In this document: one piece after another, positions 14,864-15,480 of the stretch
Numbering within the stretch: the stretch's first letter is position 1
Layout: each line of letters begins with the position of its first letter
Virus record (IMG/VR): IMGVR_UViG_3300042863_000590
Coordinates: 1 to 23,281 of that record
DNA: 23,281 bases
Reading direction: 5' to 3' (one strand)
Source: a virus
Notes under the pieces: generated by a model
Database searches by the model: none
What the model was told of the DNA's origin: nothing
What the model saw: only the letters and a program-made list of their open reading frames with translations
Position numbers and translations under genes: made by a program

Positions 14864-14894
14864 CTTGCTAATTCAGATTAGTGCCGTATGTTTG
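14864..14894 (+). promoter_or_regulatory. Early promoter
   Basis: CTTG (14864-14867), 19 nt, and TATGTTTG (14887-14894) match the Bacteroidetes -33/-7 pattern. It lies 39 bases upstream of the first early gene at 14934, whose leader is A/C-rich and lacks an SD. Confidence 0.65.
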
Positions 14895-14920: not shown

Positions 14921-14942
14921 AAACAACCACGTTATGAAACTA
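14921..14942 (+). repeat. Duplicated translation leader, copy 1
   Basis: A 22-base sequence beginning AAACAACCACGTT and running into ATGAAACTA is identical at 15233-15254. It covers the start region of both flanking genes, with no SD and A/C-rich composition. It points to duplication of the gene-plus-leader unit. Confidence 0.8.
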
Positions 14943-15176
14943 GTTACCACACGCAGCGAAGCAGGCCGTTACATCGTTTCCGCAGCCCACAATGGAGTCA
15001 TCCGCTTCTTTGAAATCTGCAAGGACTACAACACTGAAACAGGCGAGTACTTCGGCAAGTATTGGTACATCTACGAAACGACCAACGACCAATACGAATG
15101 GTGGGCAGGGCATTGGTGGACTAAGGCCGAGGCTGTCAAGTTCCTGAAGCGAGACCTGCAAACATACCAAGGTTAA
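14934..15176 (+). CDS. Unknown 80-residue early protein, upstream of the ribozyme
   Basis: ATG 14934 is chosen because it follows the promoter at a normal distance and the same leader precedes the next gene. A TTG-started extension (14865) would begin inside the promoter. The product (MKLVTTRSEAGRYIVSAAHN...) is aromatic-rich, with GKYWYIYETTNDQYEWWAGHWW in the middle and a C-terminal helix (WTKAEAVKFLKRDLQ). No family is recognised. Its final codons GGT TAA lie in stem I of the hammerhead ribozyme, so a terminating ribosome would sit on the ribozyme's 5' strand. Confidence 0.75.
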   Translation: MKLVTTRSEAGRYIVSAAHNGVIRFFEICKDYNTETGEYFGKYWYIYETTNDQYEWWAGHWWTKAEAVKFLKRDLQTYQG

Positions 15177-15222
15177 CTGATGAGGCTTAAGTAGCCGAAA
15201 CGGGCGAAAGCCCGTCTTAACC
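15171..15222 (+). ncRNA. Hammerhead ribozyme, type I, complete core
   Basis: Every conserved element is present. Stem I is GGTTAA (15171-15176) with TTAACC (15217-15222), 6 perfect pairs. The core CTGATGA spans 15177-15183. Stem II is GGCT/AGCC (15184-15187/15193-15196) with loop TAAGT, and GAA is at 15197-15199. Stem III has A15200-T15215 as the required 15.1-16.1 pair, C15201-G15214, then GGGC/GCCC capped by GAAA (15206-15209). The GTC cleavage triplet is 15214-15216, predicting a cut after 15216. Ends in stem I make it type I. Cleavage would separate the 80-residue mRNA from the next gene, leaving a 5'-OH leader of 29 bases. The upstream stop codon TAA is the 3' half of the stem I 5' strand. 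Confidence 0.93.
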
Positions 15223-15232
15223 AAGAAACCCT

Positions 15233-15254
15233 AAACAACCACGTTATGAAACTA
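15233..15254 (+). repeat. Duplicated translation leader, copy 2
   Basis: Identical over 22 bases to 14921-14942. Here it is reached by transcription through the ribozyme and lies 16 bases downstream of the predicted cleavage site. Confidence 0.8.
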
Positions 15255-15440
15255 ATCTTTGCACAGCACGACACTTGCTTCTACGTATCTGACAACAACG
15301 GCAAGCCGATGTACATCCGCCAAGGCGGTGATGACAGGGCGCACAACGGAGGGTTCACCACCTACGCTACCTTGGGCAATCTCATCAAGGCTGCACAGCG
15401 ATTTGAGCAGAAGGTAGGCTACGCTCCAACCAAAGGTTAA
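15246..15440 (+). CDS. Unknown 64-residue early protein, downstream of the ribozyme
   Basis: It begins MKLIFAQHDTCFYVSDNNGK and ends KVGYAPTKG. It shares with the preceding gene the 22-base leader, an MKL(V/I) start, an early Y.VS strand, a C-terminal helix (LGNLIKAAQRFEQ) and the terminal GGT TAA codons. The two may therefore be distant paralogues. It lacks membrane or enzyme motifs. Translation would occur on the 5'-OH mRNA made by ribozyme cleavage, or on the uncut polycistronic transcript. Confidence 0.72.
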   Translation: MKLIFAQHDTCFYVSDNNGKPMYIRQGGDDRAHNGGFTTYATLGNLIKAAQRFEQKVGYAPTKG

Positions 15441-15452
15441 CTAACTTAAACC
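15435..15452 (+). other. Possible degenerate ribozyme scar after the 64-residue gene
   Basis: GGTTAACT (15435-15442) repeats the start of the hammerhead, including the stop codon, and TTAAACC (15446-15452) resembles its stem I 3' strand TTAACC, with only three bases between. The catalytic core is absent. This fits deletion of a second ribozyme, or an ancestral stem, but the match is short. Confidence 0.4.
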
Positions 15453-15480
15453 AAAACTTTAACACTTAAACTCAAGCAAA

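Follow-up and report, generated by a model that had tools for sequence, protein, structure and literature searches.

The window analysed here, a stretch of 23,281 nucleotides of viral DNA (positions 1 to 23,281 of IMG/VR record IMGVR_UViG_3300042863_000590), carries a complete type I hammerhead ribozyme at positions 15171-15222 of the plus strand, which can be read directly from the sequence. Judging from its anatomy and from comparison with other phages, we consider it probable that this element is a catalytically competent, minimal, phage-associated type I hammerhead that cuts an early polycistronic mRNA into gene-length pieces. The ribozyme fills the gap between two small genes, here termed genes A and B, and its structure, conservation, sense orientation and between-gene position are all apparent from the comparison of sequences.

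The full reading of the element is GGTTAA-CTGATGA-GGCT(TAAGT)AGCC-GAA-A-CGGGC(GAAA)GCCCG-T-C-TTAACC, and it bears out the preliminary description of a type I hammerhead, exact coordinates included. Stem I pairs the 5' strand GGTTAA (15171-15176) with the 3' strand UUAACC (15217-15222), the latter being the predicted first bases of the released mRNA. The catalytic core CUGAUGA from C3 to A9 (15177-15183), invariant except at position 7, is followed by stem II, which consists of GGCU/AGCC closed by the pentaloop UAAGU (15184-15196), and by the GAA of the second core segment (15197-15199); all of C3 U4 G5 A6 N7 G8 A9 and G12 A13 A14 are present. Stem III (15200-15215) comprises the A15.1-U16.1 pair (A15200-U15215) and the CGGGC/GCCCG helix capped by a GAAA tetraloop (15201-15214), and C17 (15216) completes the N-U-H triplet GUC (15214-15216). 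The three stems are 6, 4 and 6 bp long, respectively, with stem I open to the flanks. Cleavage is predicted from hammerhead anatomy between C17 (15216) and 15217, the site that had been proposed beforehand. Stem I of this ribozyme lacks the bulge or loop through which the classical tertiary contact is made. When 55 nt of RNA were folded without tertiary contacts, an alternative that retains stem I came out as the minimum-energy fold, at -21.3 kcal/mol vs -20.6 kcal/mol for the hammerhead, a difference of 0.7 kcal/mol. A search of both strands of the window, also with position 4 left free, found no second hammerhead.

In the window, the structural genes run leftward on the minus strand, and the rightward genes are small; further along, the latter include genes for an Erf-like annealing protein and an exonuclease. 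The first rightward gene, gene A (80 aa, plus strand), extends from the ATG at 14934 to the stop codon TAA at 15174-15176, and this stop codon lies inside the 5' strand of stem I, as previously noted. Gene B (64 aa), an open reading frame at 15246-15440 on the same strand, starts after a leader at 15223-15245. Thus, the between-gene location described earlier holds, as does the claim of an identical leader for the two genes: the same 22 bases, AAACAACCACGTTATGAAACTA, lead gene A at 14921-14942 and gene B at 15233-15254, the end of the gene B leader being part of this repeat. Gene A is preceded by a match to the Bacteroidota promoter consensus, TTG-N19-TATGTTTG, at 14865-14894 of the plus strand. 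Both promoter elements are unchanged in a sister contig of 34.5 kb (L004), and gene A is therefore probably the first gene of an early transcript; the putative assignment of genes A and B to the early class relies on this conserved upstream promoter and on the genome layout. In a PHROGs search, neither gene matched a known protein family, and a blastn search of the surroundings against sequenced phages returned no longer-range DNA homology. The terminase is 38-47% identical to those of Flavobacterium phages and of one uncultured relative, and Cellulophaga phages match as well; this agrees with the suggested Bacteroidota affinity of the phage, whose hosts are probably Bacteroidota bacteria. We also observed a single further occurrence in the window of the ribozyme's 5' end, AAGGTTAACT; located at 15433-15457, at the stop of gene B, and followed by AACTTAAACCAAAAC, it may be what remains of a lost hammerhead. 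Genes A and B thus have a 22-nt start as well as a 10-nt end in common and resemble exchangeable cassettes.

The possibility that the motif arose by chance was ruled out by three lines of evidence, namely shuffled sequences, reversed phage DNA and compensated base pairs in the sister contig. Across 300 Markov-shuffled versions of the window, a looser definition of the hammerhead was matched once, and 1.07 Mb of phage sequence contained 135 hammerheads when read forward and none when reversed. In L004, a ribozyme is located at 2322-2373 after the same gene, the relative of gene A being 81% identical, and the hammerhead is the predicted minimum-energy fold. The two ribozymes differ by nine substitutions. 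Eight of them make up four compensated pairs, which are divided equally between stems II and III; the other one affects the freely variable core position 7, and stem I and the remaining core are unchanged. Four compensated pairs together with an otherwise intact core point to selection on the structure.

A covariance model built from the phage set assigns the window ribozyme 77.5 bits (E 1e-17), a descriptive value, as the window copy is part of the training set. The preliminary description had suggested a covariance-model search with the Rfam type I hammerhead; such a search did not recover the element, since RF00163 (Hammerhead_1) scores 17.6 bits against a curated cut-off of 34, with an alignment that spans the full model. 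The RAGATH-1-hammerhead family, RF03152, gives 21.5 bits vs a cut-off of 56.3 and aligns over model positions 26-77 only. These two families are the best Rfam matches, yet the ribozyme stays below both cut-offs, and no Rfam family reaches its cut-off anywhere in the window. The same holds for each of the approximately 51 set members tested (the window and about 50 others in 16 loci), none of which reaches any Rfam cut-off. Annotation based on these cut-offs thus misses the phage set, and the element is likely missing from the annotation of many phages.

The pattern scanned for in IMG/VR comprised the core and stem II, with stems I and III outside it, and at least 119 stretches matched. Among the 130 viral-contig matches listed, 87 also have stem III, the U-H positions and a stem I that reaches 5 bp or more, with a length of exactly 6 bp in 84 of these 87; a stem I of 1-4 bp occurs in none of the 130 matches listed. 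Likewise, stem I is exactly 6 bp long in 126 of the 135 members of the 1.07 Mb phage set. Nearly all of the comparison sequences are environmental fragments. With the stricter pattern, at least 119 stretches in viral contigs stand against five stretches (four of them hammerheads) in 84,980 bacterial and archaeal genomes, so the element is essentially a phage feature. One of the five cellular stretches, a Bordetella match (L142), has neither stem III nor stem I and was set aside. Unannotated members were identified in cultured phages, namely the Flavobacterium phage elemoB (MT497068) and the Pelagibacter phages HTVC019P/HTVC131P, where they are located among small genes and reach E values of 1e-10 to 1e-11 with the same covariance model; the elemoB group has related terminases. 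In elemoB (L124), an unannotated ORF of 21 codons, MRAIIKFLEELAKNCPSETKW, at approximately 2432-2497 ends at stem I, and the next ORF begins with MRAKQVLEYIENTLNQTP, a similar start. In addition, many pattern matches that lack an open stem I look like type III hammerheads, in which stem III is open; examples of these (L016, L046, L050, and L114) end just before a ribosome-binding site and an ATG. Some single phage contigs also carry four to five consecutive hammerheads, each between small genes (L067, L075, L079, L089, and L117).

Several features recur across the set. In a 43-member alignment, compensatory changes occur in all three stems; 14 of the 16 pairs show changes in both partners, and pairing is retained in 99.9% of the cells, a value obtained with members pre-filtered for pairing. 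Stem I nearly always begins with G-C and has an A on each side, and loop II mostly follows U-N-A/G-N-U. TAA or TAG stop codons do not account for the A located 5' of stem I, as this A is present in every stop class. Because the flanking A residues are retained whatever the position of the stop codon, they appear to be structural; we infer from these patterns that they may make a tertiary contact with loop II.

The members also share a position relative to the adjacent genes. In 115 of 123 distinct members, the last base of the upstream stop codon falls within -20 to +18 relative to the start of the core (median -5), and an ATG is found 15-45 nt past the cut in 103 of the 123. Both features are combined in 96 of 123 members, as compared with 3.6% of random positions in the same contigs and none in antisense. 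The distance from the cut to the ATG has a median of 25 nt in the set and is 29 nt in the window. Only the place appears to be fixed: the genes flanking the ribozyme differ among terminase-related contigs that carry it, and those of the window and L004 differ as well (L004 has other small genes at the location of gene B), which ties the ribozyme to a place rather than to particular genes. Among 22 contigs with related terminases, five contain the ribozyme, once or twice each, close to the start of the rightward small-gene operon; this is a lower bound, since some contigs may lack the early region.

These observations are consistent with a role in transcript processing, for which we propose the following sequence of events. 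The early transcript would begin at the promoter at 14865-14894 and run through gene A and the ribozyme into gene B and the small genes that follow. As soon as the RNA is transcribed and free of ribosomes, stems I-III would fold and the RNA would cut itself after C15216. This would leave the gene A message with the stem III hairpin and a 2',3'-cyclic phosphate at its 3' end, and, as follows from hammerhead chemistry, the gene B message is predicted to start with a 5'-OH at UUAACC, 29 nt before its ATG. The ribozyme would thus serve as a self-contained processing site, and the messages on its two sides may differ in stability and translation; each of the two new ends may affect stability. Comparable tandem hammerheads of phages cleave in vitro, and one set of them in E. 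coli (PMC3088659); for the present element, we infer cleavage in the cell and an effect on expression. Several observations count against the processing reading: the better score of the alternative fold, the plain stem I without a bulge or loop for a tertiary contact, a patchy presence among related phages, where the ribozyme is not universal, and the existence of copies with a changed core. The latter carry U4>C (CCGANGA) in otherwise well-formed ribozymes and were observed in a second copy of L004 (2997-3051) and, on the minus strand, in L173 (1446-1500) and L176 (1476-1530); in L173 and L176, an ORF runs straight through the ribozyme. This change should impair cleavage, and the patchy presence together with the U4>C copies suggests that the phages can do without the ribozyme or that it turns over rapidly.

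The preliminary description had further proposed that cleavage may be coupled to translation, in that a terminating ribosome would cover stem I. On this reading, a ribosome ending gene A would keep the ribozyme unfolded, so that cutting would occur only upon poor translation of gene A or the departure of the ribosomes and would act as a sensor of translation. The geometry fits this proposal and makes it plausible, as the stop codon of gene A lies within stem I and the stop positions in 115 of 123 members mean that a terminating ribosome would overlap stem I in nearly all of them. However, an equal geometry is expected from compact phage genomes, and the ribozyme supplies stop codons of its own, with UAA in stem I, UGA in the core, and UAA or UGA in or near loop II. 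Moreover, stops are found at several places, mostly from -11 to +15, and not at a single tuned distance. Position alone is therefore no argument for coupling, since built-in stops and genome compactness give the same result, and we regard this explanation as unlikely.

Another group of explanations concerns the likeness of stem I within a contig. Among 56 pairs of consecutive hammerheads from the same contig, a hybrid stem I is possible in 29 (21 of them fully Watson-Crick), vs a mean of 3.8 and a maximum of 11 in 1000 permutations, and even between copies with dissimilar stems II and III, the stem I halves are compatible in one or both directions (85% vs 6%), although these sets include some related contigs and the counts are not fully independent. 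The likeness covers the released mRNA from the cut to approximately +11 and, on the upstream side, does not extend past the flanking A of the ribozyme; for example, GGTTAA/TTAACC is common to both copies of L004. Possible sources of this likeness are a common 5' tag, duplication of the ribozyme with its leader, or interchangeable halves that can be ligated. It might also reflect a coherent system of minimal hammerheads that give messages the same 5'-OH start of approximately 11 nt and interchangeable stem I halves, thereby tagging or circularising them, with the window representing a one-ribozyme form; to this broader scheme we assign a low probability, comparable to that of translation coupling. 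Still more doubtful is circularisation or re-joining as such, in which the 5' end freed by one cut would base-pair with the ribozyme that follows, and ligation would give circular or re-spliced messages. The excess of possible hybrids over the permutation mean and the similarity of the L004 copies would favour it; however, the window has a single hammerhead, the likeness up to about +11 is equally explained by a shared leader or by duplication of ribozyme and leader, and Perreault et al. sought spliced and circular products and found none in their cases (PMC3088659). That the ribozyme is a relic or selfish element, carried along by shuffled small-gene cassettes without any role in expression, would suit its persistence beside differing neighbour genes in the window and L004, its patchy presence and the core-damaged copies, but is very improbable given the structural selection indicated by four compensated pairs and an intact core vs L004 and the strict sense, between-gene placement over 123 members.

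Among known systems, processing by the ribozyme would be analogous in effect to that of the early genes of T7, where RNase III sites between the genes cut the polycistronic RNA. The two are unrelated, as the T7 sites depend on a host enzyme that leaves a 5'-phosphate and a 3'-OH. Hammerheads flanking small genes of phages and prophages, together with the processing hypothesis, were published in 2011 (Perreault et al., PMC3088659), and single members of the present set may already be contained in those data sets. The window ribozyme resembles the bacterial and prophage type I hammerheads (PMC3088659, PMC6155905) in its core, three stems, open stem I, A15.1-U16.1 pair and GUC triplet; the known elements also often occur several per phage and flank small genes of unknown function (PMC3088659). 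In the literature searched, which included few subscription journals, we found no report of a 6-bp, A-flanked form missed by Rfam, of the stop/start rule or of the within-phage likeness of stem I. In contrast to the elements of PMC3088659, the phage form described here has a 6-bp stem I without an internal loop, A residues on both flanks and a U-N-A/G-N-U loop II, and it scores about half of the Rfam cut-off. What hammerheads do in bacteria and phages was still considered an open question in a 2017 review (PMC6155905). The set offers a sharp geometric rule, in which the stop codon lies at stem I and the cut precedes the next start by approximately 25 nt, and the cultured phages that carry members, elemoB and HTVC019P/HTVC131P, whose hammerheads differ from that of the window in a longer stem III, provide test systems for this rule.
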